Shown: positions 7,806 to 21,180, numbered from the stretch's first letter. The stretch: DNA of 23,008 nucleotides from a virus (IMGVR_UViG_3300033997_000588:1-23008); one strand, 5' to 3'. Notes: a model not told the origin generated them from the letters alone. Made by a program: numbers and translations.

Positions 7806-8555
7806 ATGTCGCTGATCAAAGACATCCAGACCCTGGAGCCTGGCAGCGAAGTGCTGCTGTTCGAGCTGGATGGCTCGGACTTTGGTGCCGACACGCTGCG
7901 TTTCCACGGGCACGCAATTCCACACACGCCTCAGGAGCTTGCAGCGGCTGGCGCGAACGCCGACCAGCTGCCGGCCAAGTCGATCTGGTGGCAGGGCAAC
8001 GAGTACGGTGCCTGGCCCATGCAGATCGAGGGCATCGAAGCGAACTCGGACGGTACCGCCGTGCGCCCAACGCTGACGGTGGGCAACGTCAACGGAAGGA
8101 TCACTGCGCTGTGCGTGGCCTTCGACAACCTGCTCGAGTTCAAGCTGACCATGCGCCACACGATGGCGCGTTACCTGGATGCGGTGAATTTTCCGGCAGG
8201 CAACCCGGAGGCCGACCCAACCGAGGAAGCCATTGAGGTCTGGTACATCGATCAGAAGGTGTCGGAGAACGGCAAGACGGTGGCCTGGGAGCTGGCCAGC
8301 CCCGGTGATGTCGGTGGAGAGACGATTGGCCGGCAGATGACCCAGCTTTGTCACTGGGCGATGACCGCCGGCTACCGCGGCCCCAACTGCGGATACACCG
8401 GCCCTTACTTCGACCTCGACGGCAACCCAACGGTTGACCCGGCCAAGGACCAGTGCAACGGCTGTCTCGACTCAGGCTGTACCGTTCGCTTTGGCCAGGG
8501 CAACCAACTGCCCTTTGGCGGCTTCCCGGCTGTTTCCCTCATCGCACGGAGCTGA
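7806..8555 (+). CDS. L: Minor tail protein L, predicted Fe-S tail-tip protein
   Basis: A 249-residue protein (lambda gpL is 232) with GGGAG shortly before ATG 7806. The N-terminal domain begins 'LIKDIQTLEPGSEVLLFELDGSDFGADTLRFHGH' and continues through 'WWQGNEYGAWPMQIEGIE', the Phage_tail_L (PF05100) pattern. The C-terminal domain has Cys at 182, 195, 217, 220 and 225, arranged like the cysteines of lambda gpL that hold a [4Fe-4S] cluster. Cys103 lies in the N-terminal domain and is probably not a ligand. The CNGCLDSGC cluster carries one more Cys than the four needed, so which four serve is not decided by sequence. The protein sits in the tail-tip ring between M and J. Its stop is 2 bases before the ATG of K. 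Confidence 0.9.
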   Translation: MSLIKDIQTLEPGSEVLLFELDGSDFGADTLRFHGHAIPHTPQELAAAGANADQLPAKSIWWQGNEYGAWPMQIEGIEANSDGTAVRPTLTVGNVNGRITALCVAFDNLLEFKLTMRHTMARYLDAVNFPAGNPEADPTEEAIEVWYIDQKVSENGKTVAWELASPGDVGGETIGRQMTQLCHWAMTAGYRGPNCGYTGPYFDLDGNPTVDPAKDQCNGCLDSGCTVRFGQGNQLPFGGFPAVSLIARS

Positions 8556-8557
8556 CC

Positions 8558-9313
8558 ATGCGCAAACACATCCTCGCCGCCGTGCAAGCGCACGCTGCGG
8601 CGGAGTACCCGCGCGAGTGCTGCGGGCTGATCATCGCTGTCGGCCGCTCCCACAGGTATATGCCGTGTGAAAACGCCGCCGCCGACCCTGCTGAAGAGTT
8701 CCGGATTTCGCCGGAGCAGTATGCAGAAGCGGAAGACCAGGGCGAGGTGATCGGCATCGTGCACTCACACCCTGACGCTACCAGCAGGCCGTCACCGCGC
8801 GACCTGGCTATGTGCGAGGCCACTGGTCTACCCTGGTACATCCTGTCGTGGCCGGAGGGCGATCTGCGGAGCATCACCCCGACCGGACACACTCCGCTGC
8901 TGGGGCGGCCGTTCGTGCACGGCGCATGGGACTGCTGGCAGGTCTGTGCCGACTGGTACAAGCGGGAGTGGGGCCTGGAGTTTCCGGTCTATGCCCGGGA
9001 GGAGGGATGGTGGGAGCGGGCAGACGGCCCGAGCCTTTACGAGCAGGCCTACGAGTCCGCCGGGTTCTACCAGGTTAGCCAGCCGCAGCGCGGCGACATG
9101 ATCGTCATGGCCGTTGGCCGAACGGCTCACCCGAACCATGCTGGCATCTACCTCGGCGCTGACGCTCGGCTGCCGGAGGAAGCGGGGGAGGTCTTCGGGC
9201 CTGGACCGTTCATGCTGCACCACCTGCTGGGGCGGCCATCAGAAATCATCGTGTTCGGCGGGCCCTGGCTCGACCGGACGCGCCTTGTGTTGCGTCATCG
9301 GGACGCGAAGTGA
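8558..9313 (+). CDS. K: Tail-tip protein K: JAMM plus NlpC/P60 hydrolase
   Basis: A 251-residue protein starting at ATG 8558 directly after the L stop. Longer starts would lie inside L. The N-terminal Prok-JAB/JAMM domain has the full metal-site motif: Glu20 in EYPRECCGL, then H69-x-H71-x7-S79-x2-D82. The C-terminal NlpC/P60 domain has Asp-Cys at 125-126 in WDCWQVC and His194 in HPNHAGIYLG, the expected catalytic Cys and His of a papain-like peptidoglycan peptidase. Two-domain proteins of this kind are lambda gpK homologues. They are needed for tail-tip maturation and probably local cell-wall cleavage during DNA injection. Both active sites look intact. In lambda, K is followed directly by I; here the accessory block 9338-12783 lies between them. 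Confidence 0.92.
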   Translation: MRKHILAAVQAHAAAEYPRECCGLIIAVGRSHRYMPCENAAADPAEEFRISPEQYAEAEDQGEVIGIVHSHPDATSRPSPRDLAMCEATGLPWYILSWPEGDLRSITPTGHTPLLGRPFVHGAWDCWQVCADWYKREWGLEFPVYAREEGWWERADGPSLYEQAYESAGFYQVSQPQRGDMIVMAVGRTAHPNHAGIYLGADARLPEEAGEVFGPGPFMLHHLLGRPSEIIVFGGPWLDRTRLVLRHRDAK

Positions 9314-9337
9314 AGCGGCTAGGCCGCGGGAGGACGC

Positions 9338-9457
9338 ATGCTTAAGAGTGCCATCAAACGATCAATTCAAGCGGAGTGCAAGCGCAGAGCTGCGAGCGAT
9401 GAGGTGCTCGCAGCCAAGATCGACCAACTTAGGAAGCCGAGTTCCCCGAGCGTTTGA
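9338..9457 (+). CDS. Possible 39-residue basic peptide gene after K
   Basis: A short frame MLKSAIKRSIQAECKRR... (ends SSPSV) with GGGAGGA (9328-9334) well spaced before the ATG, and a small GCGGC-TAG-GCCGC hairpin (9315-9327) in front of it. The peptide is lysine/arginine rich and predicted helical. It resembles nothing I know. It overlaps the 3' end of the convergent gene 9429-9656 by 29 bases. It may be a real small phage protein, or the leftover start of a gene cut by insertion of the accessory block. The evidence is the ribosome binding site alone. Confidence 0.4.
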   Translation: MLKSAIKRSIQAECKRRAASDEVLAAKIDQLRKPSSPSV

Positions 9458-9656
9458 TGTCGTCGATGAAATTCTGCAGGAATAAGTCAAATACCTCTTT
9501 GTTCTGAGCCTGCTTGTAATCGCTGCCGATCGTAGAAGCGAGTCTCGCTACGTAGAGCTCTTCATCTAGCGCGCCGCTTTGTTTGAGGCTTGCCGCAAGG
9601 CAGCGTACCGCAATGCTGATGGCTTTGATTTCACTCTGAAGCACTTCGTCACTCAT
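9429..9656 (-). CDS. Hypothetical helical protein, second gene of a minus-strand pair
   Basis: A 75-residue protein, MSDEVLQSEIKAISIAVRCL..., predicted all-helical. The start at 9656 is set by a strong AGGAGGTC Shine-Dalgarno on the minus strand; a longer frame to 9761 would run into the upstream gene. It lies 71 bp downstream of 9728-9976 in the same orientation, so the two are probably one transcript read away from the HEPN gene. The end is convergent with K and the small ORF at 9338. I do not recognise a family; the length and amphipathic helices would fit a small regulatory or inhibitor protein, but that is not shown. Confidence 0.65.
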   Translation of the reverse strand: MSDEVLQSEIKAISIAVRCLAASLKQSGALDEELYVARLASTIGSDYKQAQNKEVFDLFLQNFIDDIKRSGNSAS

Positions 9657-9727
9657 TTGACCTCCTAGGTCACAAGTGCCCCAGTCCATGGGCTTTCCGG
9701 CAACGGACCGGGGCGGTTCGTTTGGGA

Positions 9728-9976
9728 TCAGCTGGTTTTGGTTCGCACGATTAGGCGCCATAAAATCGGAACTGATTGGTCCTGATGTTGATGTCTGTTC
9801 TGCGGAGGGAATGGATCTCCGGCGTTCGAAGTGATCTCGTCCATGCAGCCTTCGCAGCGGTATATTCCAGAGACAGGAACCCGATCCGCTGGCTCATAAA
9901 GCGTGTTCCAGTGATCGTGACCTGGTGTTGTGGTTTCGGTTATGAACTGTCTGGTGTATTTCGTTACGAACGCCAT
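9728..9976 (-). CDS. Small conserved Cys/His protein of a widespread Pseudomonas type
   Basis: An 82-residue protein starting at 9976, with AAGGAG seven bases upstream on the minus strand (an in-frame Met at 10000 lacks one). It has 'KYTRQFITETTTPGHDHWNTLYEPADRVPVSGIYRCEGCMDEITSNAGDPFPPQNRHQHQ' and ends 'PILWRLIVRTKTS' . The 'P.SGIY.C.GC..E.TSN.GDPFPPQN.HQH....I.W.L.VRT' pattern is one I have met in many Pseudomonas chromosomes and prophages, sometimes labelled 'protein L'; its function is unknown. The CxxC pair plus the HQH suggests a small metal-binding fold. It is the first gene of the minus-strand pair and is divergent from the HEPN gene, with the first 67-bp repeat between them. Confidence 0.7.
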   Translation of the reverse strand: MAFVTKYTRQFITETTTPGHDHWNTLYEPADRVPVSGIYRCEGCMDEITSNAGDPFPPQNRHQHQDQSVPILWRLIVRTKTS

Positions 9977-9997
9977 GGCAACTCCTTTTATTGAAGG

Positions 9998-10064
9998 CAC
10001 AACGCTACTACGCTGCCGACCTAGCCGGTTACTGGCTTTCCGTCCAGGGTGGATGGGTGGACAG
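9998..10064 (+). repeat. 67-bp element, copy 1, bounding the accessory island
   Basis: This shares 49 of 67 positions, without gaps, with 12334-12400. Identical blocks are CACAACGCTACTA at the left end, TACTGGCTTTCC in the middle, then TCCA, TGGATG and TGGACAG at the right end. An imperfect hairpin CGTCCA-GGG-TGGATG (10041-10055, one G-T pair) is kept in both copies. It lies between the divergent genes 9728-9976 and 10129-10761, 65 bp before the HEPN start. Read as codons, both copies give QRYY...YWLS...G...DR, so a decayed coding piece is an alternative to a regulatory or recombination site. Confidence 0.75.
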
Positions 10065-10128
10065 ATTGGAAGTGTCGTCGATGCCGTGGCAGGCTTCGAG
10101 TGATCGAAAAAAATGTGGAGCGTCGCCA

Positions 10129-10761
10129 GTGATAAGTGCGGATGAGAAGCGGAAGCAGTGCATTAGTGCGATGGGGGCGGATCTTGGGGCGATGTACTGC
10201 GACTTAAACGACCACCTGCTGGATATCTTGTTGCTATGGAAACAGTACGAGCAGCTTTTCGGCGTGGATCCCGAGACCGTGCAGCTTTTGAACGACTCAG
10301 CGCCTACGTTCTTTGGCATTTTGCAGGCACAGCTTTGGGACGGAGTAATGCTAGGCATTTCGAGGCTTACAGACCCTCCGGTTAGCGCGGGCAAGAAAAC
10401 TCTTTCAATCAAAGCCATTCCGCCTCTGGTCAGCGACCTGAATGCTCGGGCGAGGGTAGAAGCCGCTATTGATACAGCATCGACCAATGCCGAGTTCACA
10501 AGGACCCACCGTAACAAGCGGATCGCGCACAATGACCTAGTGCACATACAAGATCGCATTGCTAATCCTTTGCCCCCTGCAAGCCGTCAGAAAATCAAGG
10601 CGGGATTGGACTCAATTTGCGCGGTGCTTGAGGTGCTCAATGGTCACTATCGCCAGTCGACAATGCTCTACGACGACATCGTTTATGATGGTGGAGCAGG
10701 TAGCGTGGTTAGCTTGCTTCGCGACGGATTACTGCGTCGAGAGCAAGAGCTTGACGGATAA
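10129..10761 (+). CDS. HEPN-domain protein, AbiU2-like putative RNase
   Basis: A 210-residue helical protein. The GTG at 10129 is preferred, with GGAG (10117-10120) eight bases upstream and a usual family-like start ISADEKRKQ; ATG 10081 is an alternative. Features in order are helix 'LNDHLLDILLLWKQYEQLFG' (about 26-45), 'LLNDSAPTFFGILQAQLWDGVMLGISRLTDPP' (53-84), 'TLSIKAIPPLV', the motif R128-N-K-R-I-A-H134, then 'LPPASRQKIKAGL' and a C-terminal 'LLRDGL'. The SRLTDPP segment and RNx4H motif match the HEPN AbiU2-like family (PF18734). HEPN RNases cut RNA using this Arg/His pair, and AbiU2 belongs to a lactococcal abortive infection system. An anti-phage role here is inference. The gene is AT-richer than tail genes and followed by its own terminator. 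Confidence 0.85.
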   Translation: MISADEKRKQCISAMGADLGAMYCDLNDHLLDILLLWKQYEQLFGVDPETVQLLNDSAPTFFGILQAQLWDGVMLGISRLTDPPVSAGKKTLSIKAIPPLVSDLNARARVEAAIDTASTNAEFTRTHRNKRIAHNDLVHIQDRIANPLPPASRQKIKAGLDSICAVLEVLNGHYRQSTMLYDDIVYDGGAGSVVSLLRDGLLRREQELDG

Positions 10762-10779
10762 TCACTGAGCCCTGGCTAG

Positions 10780-10806
10780 AAAAGCCCAGCCCCGCGGTGG
10801 GCTTTT
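10780..10806 (+). terminator. Rho-independent terminator after the HEPN gene
   Basis: AAAAGCCCA (10780-10788) pairs perfectly with TGGGCTTTT (10798-10806) around a 9-base loop. The right arm runs into five T in a row (10803-10807). It lies 18 bp after the HEPN stop, so the HEPN gene is probably a single-gene unit. Confidence 0.85.
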
Positions 10807-10873
10807 TGCATCTGGAGCGAACCGTCGCCTAGCCGTGGTAGATTGCGAGGCTGCCACTTATCGGGGATAGCCT

Positions 10874-11506
10874 ATGACCTTCAACGTGATGATAAGCATG
10901 GACGATTGCGTAGTCCTATGCGCAGACCGCAGTGCGTTTTCGGTTTATGAAGATGGTCGATCGGAGCTGTCCGAGCAACGCGTCAGGAAAATCACCGAGA
11001 CCCCGCATGGATTTATCACGGCATCGGGCTGGGCTGACCTGATACAGCCAGTGAAGGAACGATTTGCGGGCGAAGCGCCAGCAGATGTAGATGCCATGCT
11101 CTCGATAATTCAGGCAGAACAAGACCTGTTCAGCAAACTAAGCCCAGAGTTGGCCCGATCATGGATTCCTCGATCCAGCTGGAAGTTGTCTATTCCCATG
11201 AGCCGAGGGGTGGTTGCTGCTTTCTATGATCATGAAAACCGAGGCTTTTCTGGCCTTGAAGCAGGCAGGACAATCTTTACCTTTCCGTCAGAGACGCCGA
11301 TCGATGATCGGGAACACGTGGAAGGTTTATTCTGCAGAGGACAGTACGTAAAACCGTCTGGAGAAACGGTTTCCGATGCGATTAATCAGGTGCTGGCGAG
11401 TGTCACCTATCTGAGGGGGCGCGGCATCTCCATCTCGCAAGAGATTGACGTTGCGATTCATTTGGGCGGCTCTCGGAGATTGCTGGAACTGATGGCCCAG
11501 GATTAA
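10874..11506 (+). CDS. Proteasome-beta-like Ntn-hydrolase
   Basis: A 210-residue protein with GGGGA (10863-10867) before the ATG. Three regions read like a proteasome beta / HslV fold. (1) 'MTFNVMISMDDCVVLCADRSAF': Thr directly after Met, the strand, then Asp at mature position 17, followed by 'RVRKI' with Lys at mature position 38, equivalent to Lys33 of the proteasome allowing for a 5-residue insertion, and 'GFITASGWADLIQPVKERF'. (2) 'LSIPMSRGVVAAFYDHENRGFSGLEAGRTIFTFPSE', like the second sheet. (3) 'SDAINQVLASVTYLRGRGISISQEIDVAIHLG', like the C-terminal helix and 'IDVA.I' strand. Met removal would expose the catalytic Thr1. The substrate is unknown, and no partner ATPase is visible in the window. 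The gene sits between the HEPN and NucS-like genes. The family call is by eye. Confidence 0.75.
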   Translation: MTFNVMISMDDCVVLCADRSAFSVYEDGRSELSEQRVRKITETPHGFITASGWADLIQPVKERFAGEAPADVDAMLSIIQAEQDLFSKLSPELARSWIPRSSWKLSIPMSRGVVAAFYDHENRGFSGLEAGRTIFTFPSETPIDDREHVEGLFCRGQYVKPSGETVSDAINQVLASVTYLRGRGISISQEIDVAIHLGGSRRLLELMAQD

Positions 11507-11521
11507 GTGAAGCCCGAAATG

Positions 11522-11544
11522 AAAAGCCCGGCGCTTGGCCGGGC
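11522..11544 (-). terminator. Rho-independent terminator of the NucS-like gene
   Basis: GCCCGGC (11526-11532) pairs with GCCGGGC (11538-11544) around a 5-base loop. On the minus strand the stem is followed by TTTT (complement of 11522-11525), 5 bp beyond the minus-strand stop at 11550. It also lies between the two convergent genes, and may shorten the plus-strand Ntn-hydrolase transcript, though there is no T run on that side. Confidence 0.75.
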
Positions 11545-11549
11545 CTGGG

Positions 11550-12254
11550 TCAGTCTTCCACCGCAACTGCATTGAAAGCGAATTGCACCTTGTACTCAAC
11601 GAGTGACAAGTCCGTTATGGCCTCCGCCGCGTAACGGACGGCGTCCGGGAATTCGCTGGCGATCAGCATTCCGCGCGGGCGTTGACCATCCTGCCTGGCG
11701 TACCAGCCCAGATAGCGGGCAATTTGCCCTACGGCAGCATCCTTTGCCTGACCAACCTTTAGTTCGATGACGACACGGCGGCCGGTAGCATCCTCCGCAA
11801 GAATATCGACTCGGCCTACATCGATGCTTACCTGGCGATCAATGAACCGAAGGCCCTTTTCAATGCTGTCGAGACTACGAACCAAGTGAGTTTCGACATC
11901 GCGTTCTAGGCTGATAGAGGTCTCTACAAGTTCCTCGATATTGGCTTCTTCTGCATCACCGAAGTCATCCGTCTCTGTATCGGCGGATGGTGCCCAGGTA
12001 TTTACCCCGTGAACGTCAGGATTGTATCGATGGAAGCGACCATCTTCGGAGCGATAGAAGAAACGATCAGCCCATTTGTGGTGGATGTAGGCCTTGGGGT
12101 TATTAACAGTGCAGGCATAGAAATGAGCGGCGATCGCTCCAGGCTTCCATCGCTTTGGGAATTCGCGGTCGATGTAGTCCTTCATTTCTTGTCTTGTAGC
12201 GCCATCGGGTGCTTGCTCTATGTAGCTTCGCAGGGCTTCTGCCAGCGTTGTCAT
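11550..12254 (-). CDS. NucS-like PD-(D/E)XK endonuclease with N-terminal extension
   Basis: A 234-residue protein with AGGAAG eight bases before ATG 12254 on the minus strand. Residues 1-75 form a helix-rich domain (LAEALRSYIEQAPDGATRQEMKDYIDREFP...) resembling a winged-helix or DNA-recognition module, followed by an acidic linker (about 89-110, TETDDFGDAEEANIEE). Residues about 115-230 are a NucS-type nuclease: Glu121, Asp150 in VGRVDILAED, E164-L-K166 in VVIELK, and Q177-x2-RYLGWY. These are the expected acidic metal ligands and lysine. NucS family enzymes cut branched, flapped or mismatched DNA. A short phage-borne fusion with a new N-terminus would suit nuclease defence, but no self-protection partner or PCNA/clamp-binding tail was seen. 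An inverted repeat TTAACT (12278-12283)/AGTTAA (12297-12302) lies just upstream and could be an operator. Confidence 0.85.
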   Translation of the reverse strand: MTTLAEALRSYIEQAPDGATRQEMKDYIDREFPKRWKPGAIAAHFYACTVNNPKAYIHHKWADRFFYRSEDGRFHRYNPDVHGVNTWAPSADTETDDFGDAEEANIEELVETSISLERDVETHLVRSLDSIEKGLRFIDRQVSIDVGRVDILAEDATGRRVVIELKVGQAKDAAVGQIARYLGWYARQDGQRPRGMLIASEFPDAVRYAAEAITDLSLVEYKVQFAFNAVAVED

Positions 12255-12333
12255 GCAATGTCTTCCTGATCTGAGAGTTAACTGGATAAGTTGTTTAGTT
12301 AAGTGGGTGGTAGCTGCGAGGCATCCGAGATAT

Positions 12334-12400
12334 CACAACGCTACTATGACCCCGTTCGGTTCTGCTACTGGCTTTCCATCCACACTGGATGCCTGGACAG
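12334..12400 (+). repeat. 67-bp element, copy 2, right boundary of the accessory island
   Basis: This is the second copy of the element at 9998-10064, same orientation, same length, 49 of 67 bases identical. The hairpin CATCCA-CAC-TGGATG (12377-12391) is perfect here. The copies start 2336 bp apart and the HEPN, Ntn-hydrolase and NucS-like genes lie between them. This copy lies 80 bp from the NucS-like start and 39 bp before the lipoprotein ATG. Just after it is an extended -10-like TGG-TACAGT (12407-12415) without a good -35, which may drive the lipoprotein gene. Confidence 0.75.
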
Positions 12401-12438
12401 GCCGGCTGGTACAGTCGCCGTTTTCAAGGAGTGATCAC

Positions 12439-12783
12439 ATGCGAATTCTGATCGGGGCAGTGGGACTGGTATTGCTGGCGGGGTGCGTGTCACCAAGCGA
12501 TCTGAAAGGTAATTCACCGACGACCAAAGCCGTTACCAAGAAATCACCAAAGGAGTACGCGCTATGTGTACTCCCCCAATGGCAGGATGCTCGATCTGAA
12601 GCGACCATGTCAGAAACTCAGAATGGCTACCGTCTTGTCGTTGCTGCGATGAACCTAACAGACGAACTACTTGAAGTCTCGAAGACGGACGCAGGTAGCT
12701 CGGTTGTATTTTATCAACGGGTTGCATGGATGCCCGGCGTCGGGCGTTCCGCGATAGAGAGTGCGGTAAAGTCGTGCCTTTGA
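12439..12783 (+). CDS. Small lipoprotein (lysogenic conversion / superinfection exclusion candidate)
   Basis: A 114-residue protein with AAGGAG (12426-12431) seven bases before ATG 12439; a longer frame from 12253 would cover the repeat element and has no ribosome site. The N-terminus MRILIGAVGLVLLAGC is a typical type II signal peptide with lipobox LAGC and lipidated Cys16. Residue 17 is Val, so there is no Asp+2 inner-membrane retention signal and outer-membrane sorting is likely. The mature part is short with one internal Cys in EYALCVLPQWQDARSEATMSE and a C-terminal Cys two residues from the end, a possible disulphide. Phage lipoproteins such as Cor of phi80/HK022 mask host receptors; a similar role is guessed only from size, location and its own terminator at 12801. 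Confidence 0.75.
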   Translation: MRILIGAVGLVLLAGCVSPSDLKGNSPTTKAVTKKSPKEYALCVLPQWQDARSEATMSETQNGYRLVVAAMNLTDELLEVSKTDAGSSVVFYQRVAWMPGVGRSAIESAVKSCL

Positions 12784-12800
12784 CATAGCGCCACCTATCA

Positions 12801-12821
12801 ACCGCCTCCGGGCGGTTTTTT
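12801..12821 (+). terminator. Terminator-like hairpin directly before gene I (repeated cassette)
   Basis: ACCGCC (12801-12806) pairs with GGCGGT (12811-12816) around TCCG, followed by a T tract (12816-12821). The Shine-Dalgarno GGAGGAAA and the ATG of I follow within 20 bp. The same layout recurs at 13454 and 20698, and in degenerate form at 2651. Here it could end the lipoprotein transcript. Confidence 0.75.
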
Positions 12822-12838
12822 ATTGCCTGGAGGAAAGT

Positions 12839-13435
12839 ATGGCTGCAACGGTAGCGCATTACGCGCAGATGACGACGATCAAGCTTTCCGGCTCGCTGGC
12901 CCAGAAATTTGGCCGAGTGCATCGCCGCCAGTTGGAAAGTGGAGAGGGGTGGGAGGCATTCAAAGCGTTGCGCGTAACGCTTCCCGGTTTTGTAGAGGAA
13001 ATCAGGCGGCTTGATGCCCTAGGGATCCGCTTTGCCGTATTTCGCAACCGAAAAAATGTAGGCGCGGATGACTTAGGGCGCCGTGGCACCAAAGAGATTC
13101 GGATTGTTCCTCTTATTGGCGGGAGCAAACGCGGAGGCCTTCTTCAAACGATCATCGGCACCGTAATCTTCGTTGCGTCCTTTTTCGTTCCTGGGATGCA
13201 AGGGTGGGGGCAGTCTCTCGGCGCATCGCTTGCCCTGGGCGGCGTCATCCAGATGCTCAGCCCCCAAGCCAAGGGCCTGTCCCAAAGCGCTGCACCCGAG
13301 AACCTGCCGAGTTACGCCTTCGGCAGCGCCAAAAACACTACTGCCAGCGGCAACCCTGTCCCGATCTGTATCGGCGAGCGCCGCTGGGGTGGCGCGATAA
13401 TCTCTGCCTCCATTGAGGCACAAGATAAGGCCTAG
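12839..13435 (+). CDS. I: Tail assembly protein I
   Basis: A 198-residue protein with GGAGGAAAGT before ATG 12839. It begins with 'TTIKLSGSLAQKFGRVHRRQLESGEGWEAFKALRVTLPGFVEEIR', a ubiquitin-like beta-grasp pattern of the lambda gpI family. The middle has a hydrophobic pair (GLLQTIIGTVIFVASFFVPGMQGWGQSLGASLALGGVIQMLSP), and the C-terminus has the 'NLPSYAFGSAKNTTASGNPVPICIGERRWGGAIISA' segment, diagnostic of gpI. gpI joins the tail-tip complex with J and is processed in some phages. In lambda it directly follows K; here the two are separated by 3.5 kb of accessory genes. The stop TAG is followed by a second hairpin and gene J. Confidence 0.9.
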   Translation: MAATVAHYAQMTTIKLSGSLAQKFGRVHRRQLESGEGWEAFKALRVTLPGFVEEIRRLDALGIRFAVFRNRKNVGADDLGRRGTKEIRIVPLIGGSKRGGLLQTIIGTVIFVASFFVPGMQGWGQSLGASLALGGVIQMLSPQAKGLSQSAAPENLPSYAFGSAKNTTASGNPVPICIGERRWGGAIISASIEAQDKA

Positions 13436-13453
13436 GGCCGATTCAGCGTACAG

Positions 13454-13474
13454 ACCGCCTCCGGGCGGTTTTTT
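13454..13474 (+). terminator. Terminator-like hairpin directly before gene J (repeated cassette)
   Basis: ACCGCC (13454-13459), loop TCCG, GGCGGT (13464-13469), then six T (13469-13474), followed by a CGGAGGAAAG Shine-Dalgarno and ATG 13492. It is nearly base-for-base identical to 12801-12821 and its downstream region. There is no accessory gene here, so it would lie inside the late operon and must be read through, perhaps by late antitermination. Confidence 0.75.
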
Positions 13475-13491
13475 GTTGCCCGGAGGAAAGC

Positions 13492-16400
13492 ATGGGCCCG
13501 ACAGATCACCTGGACATCACAGGCGCCAAGGGCGGCGAGAGCAAGCCAAAATCCCCCGTTGAGGCGCCGGACAGCCTGCAGTCGACCAACATCGCCAAGC
13601 TGCTGCTGGCTGTGGGCGAGGGGGAGTTTGACGGCACACCTACCGACCGCGAAATCTACCTCGACAACACGCCGATCATGGATACCAGCGGCAACGTGAA
13701 CTTCCCGGGCGTGAAGTGGGAGTGGCGCCGAGGCACTATCGAGCAGGACTACATCCAGGGCATCCCGTCGGTAGAGAACGAGACGACTGTCAACGTCGAA
13801 CTGCGCAGCGATAACCCGTTCACCCGGGCGCTGAGCAACATCCAGCTGTCGGCCGTGCGCGTGCGTATGTCGTGGCCGCGTCTGGCCAAGCAGGACAGTA
13901 GCGGGAACACCAACGGTTACCGAATCGAGTACGCCATCGATATCGCCACTGACGGCGGGGCGTATGCCGAGGCTCACCGCGGAGCCGTCGATGGCAAGAC
14001 CACCAATGGGTATCAGCGCTCCGTGCGCGTGAACCTGCCGGCGGCTACCTCCGGCTGGATGCTGCGCGTACGACGTATCACTCCGAACGCCAACAGCGGT
14101 ACTGTGGCCGACACGATGACCATTGCCGGCTATACCGAGATCATCGACGAGAAGCTGCGTTACCCAAACACCGCGCTGCTGTACATCGAATTCGACGCGC
14201 AGCAGTTCCAGAACATTCCGGCCGTGACCGTGAAGTGCAAGGCCAAACGTTGGCCTGTTCCGACCAATTATGACCCCGTGACCCGCACCTACACTGGCGT
14301 GTGGGATGGCACCTTCAAGCAGGCCTGGACCAACAACCCCGCCTTTGTGACCTACGGCCTGTGCGTCGAGGATCGCTTCGGCCTGGGCAAACGCATCAAG
14401 TCATGGATGGTCGACAAGTGGGAGATGTACCGCATCGCCCAGTATTGCGACCAGCTGGTGCCGAACGGGCAGGGCGGTCAGGAGCCTCGCTTCCTGTGCG
14501 ACATGAACCTGCAGGGCCGCGCCGAGGCCTGGACGCTGCTGCGCGACCTGTCGGCCATTTACCGGGGCATGGTGTACTGGGCTCACGGCTCGCTGTTCAT
14601 GCAGGCGGACATGCCGCGTGCCCAGGACATCGACTACGTGTTCACCCGTGCCAATGTCATCGACGGTGAGTTCGTATACGGCGGTGCCGAGCGCAACACG
14701 CACTACAGCCGCGCCCTGGTCAGCTACGACAACCCTGCCAACAACTACGACACCGATGTGATCCCGGTGACCGACCTGGCGCTGCAGCGGCGGTACCGCG
14801 ACCGGCCAATCGAGATCTCGGCCATCGGCTGCACGCGCGCCTCCGAAGCCCAGCGCCGGGGGAGGTGGGCACTGCTGAGCAACAGCCAGGACCGCACTGT
14901 CAGCTTCAAGACCGGCATGGAAGGCCGGATCCCGCTGCCTGGCTACGTCATCCCTGTGGCGGATGAGCTGGTGGCCGGCCGCCCGAACGGTGGCCGGATC
15001 TCGTCCGCTGCCGGCCGTGTGGTCACCCTTGATCGCGACACGCCGATCAAAGCAGGTGACCGCTTAATCGTGAACCTGCCCAACGGCACCGCCCAGGCGC
15101 GCACCGTGCAGTCTGTGGCCGGGCGCGCGGTGACGGTGACGACTGAATACAGCGTGCAGCCAGAGCCCGAACTGCAGTGGGCAATCGACTACGACGACCT
15201 GGCGGTGCAGCTCTTCCGAGTGCTGAAGACCACTCGCACCCAGGAAGGTGAGTACGAGATCACTGCGCTTGAGTTCAACCCCAGCAAGTTCGCAGCAATC
15301 GACACCGGCGCCAAGTTGGACGAACGCCCGATCAGCGTCATTCCGGTCACTACCGTAGCGCCCCCGGCCAGCGTGTCGCTGACCTCGGCCTATGCCGTGG
15401 ATCAGGGGATCGCCGTCAGCACCATGACGATCAGCTGGCCGGCGGTCCAGGGGGCGGTCGCTTACGATGTGGAATGGCGCAAGGACAACGGCAACTGGAC
15501 TCGCCTGCAGCGTACTGGTGCAACCTCAATCGATGTGGTGGGCATCTATGCTGGCTCCTACCTGGCCAGGGTTCGGGCCGTCAGCTCGTTCGACATAACG
15601 TCGATCTGGCGGGATTCGACGCTCACTGAGCTGAAAGGCAAGGAGGGCACACCGCCTTCGGTAACCTACCTGACGGCCGATCCGCTGATCTTCGGGATAT
15701 CGCTCAAGTGGGGAATCCCACCAGGCGCCGAGGACACCCAGCGGACGGAGATCTGGTACGGCCCAACGAACAGCCTGGAGGCGGCAACGAAACTCGCCGA
15801 TCTGGCCTACCCGCAGACCGAGTACGTGATGCAAGGCCTGAAGGCCGGTGTCTCGTTCTTCTTCTGGGCGCGCCTGGTGGACCGGACCGGCAACATCGGC
15901 CCGTGGTATCCCATCGGTGGTGGCGTGTTTGGCCAGTCTGGGGCGGATGCAAGCCCAGTATTGGAACTGATCACTGGGAAAATCACCGAAAGCGAGCTCG
16001 GGCAGAATCTGCTGAGCGAGATCGAGAAGATTTCCGGCGAAGGCCCGGAGTCGGTGAATGGCCGTATCGAGGCGGCCAAGCAGGAGCTGGAGGACCTGAT
16101 CACTGACTTGACTGACCCGCTCGAGTACGTGGCCACCAACGCCTACGCCAAGGACGATGCCGTGCGCAGCGGACAGCGCCTGTACATGGCCATTGCGCCG
16201 GTACCGGCGGCTGCCAACGGCAGCAACGCCCCGCCGAACCCGGCTTACTGGGTCGATATCGGCAGCATTGCCTCGACGGCAAATGGCCTGGCGCAGGCGG
16301 TGGCCAAGAACACCACGGACATCGCGACGGTTGATGGGAAAGTGACGGTGAATGCGGCCATGCTTCAGGCCGTGCAGTCGGCGTACCGTGACGAAAACCC

Positions 16401-20697: not shown

Positions 20698-20720
20698 ACC
20701 GCCGCCTGGCGGTATTTTTT
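20698..20720 (+). terminator. Terminator-like hairpin directly before the endolysin (repeated cassette)
   Basis: ACCGCC (20698-20703), loop GCCT, GGCGGT (20708-20713), then A and seven T (20715-20721). TGGAGAAAA and the endolysin ATG follow. The preceding 145 bp (20553-20697) hold nothing else I can support. Confidence 0.75.
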
Positions 20721-20736
20721 TGCCTGGAGAAAACCC

Positions 20737-21180
20737 ATGACCGCACGCGGCATTCGCAACAACAACCCCGGCAACATCGATTTCAACCCACGCAATGCCT
20801 GGCAGGGCCAGCTCGGCCTGGAGGTCGGTGTTGCCAAGCCACGCTTTGCCCGCTTCGATACGCCAGAGAACGGCATCCGCGCTCTGGGCAAACTGCTAAT
20901 CAACTATCGGGGCAAGGATGGGATGCCCGGCGTTGGCGGGAAGGGCATCGACACCGTGCTGGAGACCATCAGCCGCTGGGCGCCGAGCAACGAGAACAAC
21001 ACTCAGGCTTACGCTGCGACCGTGGCCAGGCGGCTGGGCGTGCGGACCATTGACCCGATCAACATCAAAGATCCCGCAACGCTTCGCGGCATGGTGGTGA
21101 GCATCATCATCCATGAGAACGGCGGAAACCCTTACGCCGCCGCGATCATCGACGAAGGTGTGCGGAGGGCGCTGGCATGA
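20737..21180 (+). CDS. Endolysin-type protein (lytic transglycosylase-like)
   Basis: A 147-residue protein with TGGAG (20724-20728) eight bases before ATG 20737; upstream in-frame starts lie before the hairpin. It opens 'ARGIRNNNPGNIDFNPRNAWQGQ', has 'PRFARFDTPENGIRALGKLLINYRGK', 'TVLETISRWAPSNENNTQAYAATVARRLG' and a C-terminal 'ATLRGMVVSIIIHENGGNPYAAAIIDEG'. This is a phage family often annotated as virion or structural protein, present in the Pseudomonas phage lysis region; its catalytic residues are not clear by eye, so the hydrolase role is inferred from the next genes being spanins. No secretion signal is visible, so a holin would be needed. The ATGA overlap couples it to Rz. Confidence 0.8.
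   Translation: MTARGIRNNNPGNIDFNPRNAWQGQLGLEVGVAKPRFARFDTPENGIRALGKLLINYRGKDGMPGVGGKGIDTVLETISRWAPSNENNTQAYAATVARRLGVRTIDPINIKDPATLRGMVVSIIIHENGGNPYAAAIIDEGVRRALA

Follow-up and report, generated by a model that had tools for sequence, protein, structure and literature searches.

Element B, a short sequence that stands twice in the tail operon of a viral DNA of 23,008 nucleotides (IMGVR_UViG_3300033997_000588:1-23008; the window), is probably a portable leftward promoter of Pseudomonas temperate phages, with the neighbouring element A as a hairpin leader and with cargo genes exchanged by recombination at these sequences. B would transcribe cargo antisense to the tail operon, leader A and a hairpin around the Shine-Dalgarno sequence would often lie in the 5' UTR of the B transcript, and the flanking cargo would be swapped by recombination at shared A/B sequences. 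The existence of the family, its boundaries, its fixed geometry relative to leftward start codons, the strand of the A hairpin and the shuffling of flanks can be read from the collected copies.

The K–I interval as a cargo hotspot

Tail genes K and I are separated by 3.5 kb in the window, from the stop of K to the start of I (Table 1), just as the first-pass annotation had it. Among 116 loci, representing 91 distinct junctions, the K–I distance ranges from 15 to 5701 bp, and 121 families of cargo ORF are found, as called heuristically on contigs of which many are fragments. At its smallest the junction is K–I or K–lipoprotein–I. Thus, the K–I site is a genuine cargo hotspot within the tail operon. 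The lipoprotein family F1 has 84 members in the 91 distinct junctions, 14 of which are minimal K–F1–I, and the phrog_15514 gene of the window belongs to family F9, with six copies across K–I junctions. Other cargo includes Kdo/WaaP-kinase-like, GNAT, NYN–LOTUS and BRCT proteins, with weaker matches to aspartyl protease and GIY-YIG.

Table 1. Features of the K–I interval and its borders in the window
Feature	Position	Strand	Basis or remark
Tail gene K (JAB + NlpC/P60)	8555..9313	+	Pfam/PHROGs; left border of the hotspot
Leader C, hairpin GCGGC-TAG-GCCGC + Shine-Dalgarno sequence	9315..9334	+	immediately 3' of the K stop codon
C ORF, 39 aa, small sense gene	9338..9457	+	
A gene, 75 aa, helical protein	9429..9656	-	start codon at a fixed distance from leader A
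Leader A, predicted hairpin of the leftward transcript + Shine-Dalgarno hairpin GACCTAGGAGGTC	9657..9727	-	profile match 9663-9726
phrog_15514 gene, 82 aa, between A and B	9728..9976	-	PHROGs E=8e-32
Element B copy 1 (repeat 1 of the first-pass annotation), putative leftward promoter	9995..10067	-	profile match
HEPN_AbiU2 gene	10081..10761	+	Pfam; RNKRIAH (R-x5-H) motif
Terminator-like hairpin 3' of the HEPN gene	10788..10803	+	
Extended -10-like box TGGTAGATT ahead of the Ntn gene	10836..10844	+	sequence
Proteasome-like (Ntn) hydrolase candidate	10874..11506	+	motif level only
Terminator-like hairpin separating the convergent Ntn and NucS-like genes	11524..11546	.	found on minus strand
NucS_C-type nuclease gene, N-terminal DUF7669	11550..12254	-	Pfam, PDB and PADLOC PDC-S02 matches
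Element B copy 2 (repeat 2), putative leftward promoter of the nuclease gene	12334..12403	-	profile match
Extended -10-like box TGGTACAGT of the lipoprotein gene	12407..12415	+	kept in most junctions, including those without B
Lipoprotein gene (phrog_914; family F1)	12439..12783	+	PHROGs
Terminator-like hairpin ahead of gene I	12800..12817	+	
Tail gene I	12839..13435	+	PHROGs phrog_32; right border of the hotspot

The three genes with enzyme-like products that had been taken for a cassette, encoding the HEPN protein, the hydrolase candidate and the nuclease, are not one operon, since hairpins lie between them, a separate −10-like box precedes the hydrolase gene, and the nuclease gene is reversed. 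Both terminators that had been placed behind the HEPN and nuclease genes are present as terminator-like hairpins (10788-10803, and 11524-11546 between the hydrolase and nuclease genes). Copy 1 of B (B1) would serve the phrog_15514 gene first and, via leader A, the 75-aa gene after it, and copy 2 (B2) would drive the gene of the NucS-like nuclease. The HEPN, hydrolase and lipoprotein genes would be read rightward from promoters other than B.

Structure and distribution of element B

The direct repeat from which the cassette had been proposed is real: positions 9998-10064 and 12334-12400 are 73% identical over 67 bp without gaps and start 2336 bp apart. A profile from the copies carries B slightly past these 67 bp, to 9995-10067 and 12334-12403, and both copies sit upstream of divergent gene pairs. 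B has two conserved blocks, which read CTACTAY and TACTGG rightward and CCAGTA and GTAGTAG leftward. Among 104 non-redundant copies, 85 have an 18-nt and 11 a 17-nt spacer of variable sequence between the blocks, and conservation ends sharply on the right. There is also an imperfect dyad (CATCCAnnnTGGATG) in B, with the blocks behind it. One reading frame is open through many copies, as it would be if the block were a small conserved coding sequence (a YY-x6-YWLSIHAGW peptide). This is extremely improbable: 33 of the 104 copies have a stop in that frame inside the block, the frame is broken by the alternation of 17- and 18-nt spacers, and third codon positions are no less conserved than the others. 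The coding peptide was rejected on these stops, frame-breaking spacers and codon-position conservation.

The repeat-core pattern matches in 67 viral contigs and in 18 genome contigs (17 with Pseudomonas in the title, the other being "Pantoea sp. Ap-967"); these collections overlap, and near-identical copies were collapsed wherever counts are given as distinct or non-redundant. B occurs in 48 of 300 sampled Pseudomonas genomes. In a class-wide sample it occurs in 1 of 369 genomes, the centre genome itself, and in none of the 368 others. Rfam has no match for leader A or B at E<=1 in window positions 9300-13500 on both strands. Strings of 12–14 bases from B retrieved no phage or Pseudomonas paper among the matches listed in the open-access literature, and a search of that literature by topic gave morons and Tab, and not element B.

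Element B as a probable leftward promoter

The leftward start codon lies mostly 63-70 nt from B when A intervenes and mostly 17-30 nt from B in copies without A, whereas rightward starts are scattered over 39-374 nt; start calling was heuristic, with Shine-Dalgarno motifs as part of the scoring. Because the position of B is tied to the leftward gene and not to the rightward one, a leftward promoter is the simplest reading. In locus L001, which has the same element as copy 1, the leftward start is 17 nt from B. The same leftward geometry is seen in most new copies of B from other Pseudomonas genomes; in seven of about 24 new copies, and in several older ones, no leftward start was called where this geometry would place it. 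The NucS start is 72 nt from B in the homologous locus L124, and the deduced 5' UTR of 72 nt is long, which counts against the promoter reading.

When K loci were picked independently of B, B was present in 26 of 27 junctions with a called leftward ORF and in 1 of 22 without (Fisher p ~1e-11). The lone exception, L172, does have a leftward gene, which is seen in L091 from the same contig. B is absent from rightward-only inserts and from minimal junctions. In deposited records, an annotated CDS start adjoins the element in AUS531phi, OQ658365, phiAH14a and a P. aeruginosa plasmid-prophage, and in phiAH14a the copy separates I from the tail-fibre gene.

In some copies the dyad stands 15 nt ahead of the extended −10 box of the lipoprotein gene, as if B controlled the rightward cargo as a promoter or operator. 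That assignment is improbable in view of the scatter of rightward starts and of the junctions without B, rightward-only or minimal, in which the lipoprotein gene still has its own −10 box. For the leftward promoter, no likeness to a sigma-70 promoter was found in B. Terminator-like hairpins are present in the interval, and the cargo promoters are predicted from B and −10-like boxes. Transcription from B, its recognition by a factor and expression in lysogens are inferred. In loci L214 and L217, the leftward gene preceded by B encodes a protein of about 360 aa (MEFVERLNAM...) that we take to be reminiscent of type I restriction HsdR N-terminal proteins.

Leader A and the genes behind it

Element A is a stem-loop immediately ahead of the leftward Shine-Dalgarno sequence. 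A leftward ORF directly follows A in 133 of 142 copies, and the 91 distinct proteins encoded there represent more than 20 unrelated-looking types of small gene. Ten representatives have no PHROGs match, and the 75-aa A protein of the window matches neither PHROGs nor Pfam.

RNAalifold on the whole A–B alignment gives little covariation because most A–B copies are close, and the stem was consequently tested on 62 distinct cores, where it pairs at 89% in register and at no more than 49% when slid. Part of the A set had been found by a seed pattern that fixes stem positions, and the strand test was redone on 41 cores outside that part. In these, the leftward RNA forms pair 5–31 34 times out of 41 and the rightward RNA 15 times; for pair 10–26 the counts are 37 and 10. 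G·U pairs thus assign the helix to the leftward RNA only and not to its complement. Compensatory double changes are few, and the signal is mainly exchange among G-U, A-U and G-C pairs. The Shine-Dalgarno sequence lies in a hairpin of its own (GACCTAGGAGGTC in the window) in 42 of 62 leaders, versus about 27 expected from a shuffle that scores any hairpin, so that this second hairpin is no more than suggestive. In six loci (L002, L025, L069, L015, L041, L102) an extra hairpin (~GCGCCAATTTCGGCGC) is inserted downstream of leader A and ahead of the start codon region.

Assortment and exchange of the cargo genes

The HEPN, hydrolase and nuclease genes, flanked by two direct copies of B and found together in locus L002 as well as in the window, had been proposed to move as one cassette with the repeats as its ends, leaving a single copy behind on loss. 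It is very improbable that they do. The three genes do not come and go together: HEPN occurs without hydrolase or nuclease in L162/L166, L124 (from the same contig as L158) has the nuclease, B and the lipoprotein gene without HEPN or hydrolase, and L206 has the hydrolase alone, directly behind K. Copy 2 goes with the NucS–lipoprotein junction where phages lack the rest of the cargo. The two window copies are not mutual closest relatives: copy 1 has 42 non-redundant copies that resemble it more than copy 2 does, and for copy 2 there are 22 that are nearer than copy 1; since copy 1 is nearer to 42 copies elsewhere, they are not a recent pair. Moreover, B stands ahead of over 20 unrelated gene families and always in one orientation within K–I junctions. 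Transposon ends were rejected on the independent assortment and the copy similarities. What survives of the suggested mobile defence or lysogeny module is an accessory-gene hotspot with some defence-like cargo, not a repeat-bounded three-gene unit.

The single-copy layout expected after loss of a cassette is formally seen in L138, where A, a phrog_15514-family gene and a single B lead straight to the lipoprotein gene. This arrangement also fits homologous recombination between promoter copies, being what B1 x B2 recombination would leave. Shuffling is seen across the family. The sequences flanking A–B group into 61 clusters on the left and 60 on the right, combined in 73 pairings; 11 of the left types are found with two or more right types, and 9 of the right types with two or more left types. 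L064 is a hybrid within the element, with a left half of L006 type and a right half of L005 type. Such shuffling would also be produced if B and A were chiefly recombination linkers that aid cargo exchange without a role in expression. Linking alone, however, would not require a constant distance to the leftward start, a spacer of set length or an RNA hairpin on one strand only, and a purely linking role is unlikely. Besides their putative roles as leftward promoter and leader, A and B are also sites of cargo exchange, probably by ordinary homologous recombination.

The enzyme-like genes

Profiles bear out two of the three enzyme-like assignments, and the hydrolase stands on its motif pattern. 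The HEPN gene matches Pfam HEPN_AbiU2 at E = 3e-19 (69.6 bits versus a curated cut-off of 26.8), and the catalytic R-x4-6-H motif is present as RNKRIAH in the window and in L162/L166. The nuclease, encoded on the minus strand, matches NucS_C (PF01939) at E = 1e-13 and NucS/EndoMS in the PDB (2vld, 5gke) at E ~1e-6; it stays below the equivalog cut-off for full-length NucS (68.5 bits versus 216), having DUF7669 at its N-terminus instead.

The hydrolase candidate has no match in Pfam, NCBIfam or the PDB, and its single-sequence structure model has a pLDDT of 38. Thr-Ntn hydrolases of the proteasome/HslV type have an N-terminal Thr, an Asp and a Lys at an expected spacing. Thr2, Asp18 and Lys39 are invariant in three sequences, down to a homologue with 22% identity, so that the gene product is a candidate Thr-Ntn (proteasome-like) hydrolase at the motif level. 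A distant homologue, for which the PDB has no match, lies in a Pseudomonas genome (L239:352-2199) beside an opposite-strand gene of 254 aa without a Pfam match. In L222, the leftward gene beside B encodes a 200-aa protein (MTSFLFYTDANEIIVATDT...) that appears Thr-Ntn-like by eye; it matches nothing in Pfam and fails to align with the hydrolase of the window.

Relation to known systems

Repeats separate interchangeable genes here as in integron attC-type cassettes, but B is found at gene starts instead of ends, and no attC-type core was seen by eye. Boundary sequences are short conserved stretches at which unrelated flanks are exchanged. A and B resemble them in being short and conserved with unrelated flanks exchanged, but differ in their start-codon geometry, promoter-like blocks and strand-specific RNA hairpin. 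The term boundary (linker) sequence has been used for mosaic phages (PMC3029335).

In Pseudomonas phage JBD26, tab / anti-tab includes a minus-strand defence gene with its own promoter in the late operon, between the terminase genes, with a partner sense gene where the preceding late gene ends (PMC10884400). The K–I junctions likewise combine an antisense gene in a late operon with a sense gene behind the preceding late gene. Unlike tab, one promoter–leader module is common to many unrelated genes here, at K–I and other tail junctions, and defence is putative. Like morons, the K–I cargo genes are extras that some related phages lack at this locus. Morons with their own promoters are known, and no report of one promoter–leader cassette on dozens of unrelated cargo genes was found in the open-access literature. 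A/B may serve as a sequence handle for finding cargo in Pseudomonas phages, even small genes that match no family, and predicts which strand they are on. It also suggests how accessory genes can enter a late operon yet stay expressed in lysogens, and raises the question of what Pseudomonas factor might recognise this non-sigma-70 element, which occurs in phages throughout the genus.

Leader C and a possible sense/antisense gene pair

Another shared leader, C, a GCGGC…GCCGC hairpin with a Shine-Dalgarno sequence, is found together with a small sense ORF directly behind K in 48 of 69 junctions with B versus 1 of 22 others, and the C ORF is presumably read with the late operon. Families of the C ORF and the A gene co-vary, with an adjusted mutual information of 0.49 (observed mutual information 2.09 versus a maximum of 1.83 in 2000 permutations), whereas the value for the A gene and the first rightward gene is only 0.13. 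Physical linkage alone could be responsible for part of the C/A co-variation. As a tentative and rather unlikely possibility, the two might form exchangeable pairs, a sense C gene acting in the lytic cycle and an antisense A/B gene in lysogens, as a Tab/anti-Tab-like defence and antidote with many families under one Pseudomonas-specific promoter and a host factor. These sense/antisense mini-gene pairs would be testable candidates for new defence/antidote pairs.

Other shared elements of the tail operon

Rightward cargo and lipoprotein genes have in common an extended −10-like box (TGnTAnAnT) for which no −35 can be recognised (window 10836-10844 and 12407-12415, and most K–I junctions), and it often lies directly behind a terminator-like hairpin. 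A 42-bp unit made of a terminator and a Shine-Dalgarno sequence (ACCGCCTCCGGGCGGTTTTTT...GGAGGAAAG.ATGG) occurs at 12801-12842, 13454-13495 and 20698-20739 of the window, preceding genes I and J and a start codon further along, respectively, the latter two copies having 93% and 76% identity to the first.
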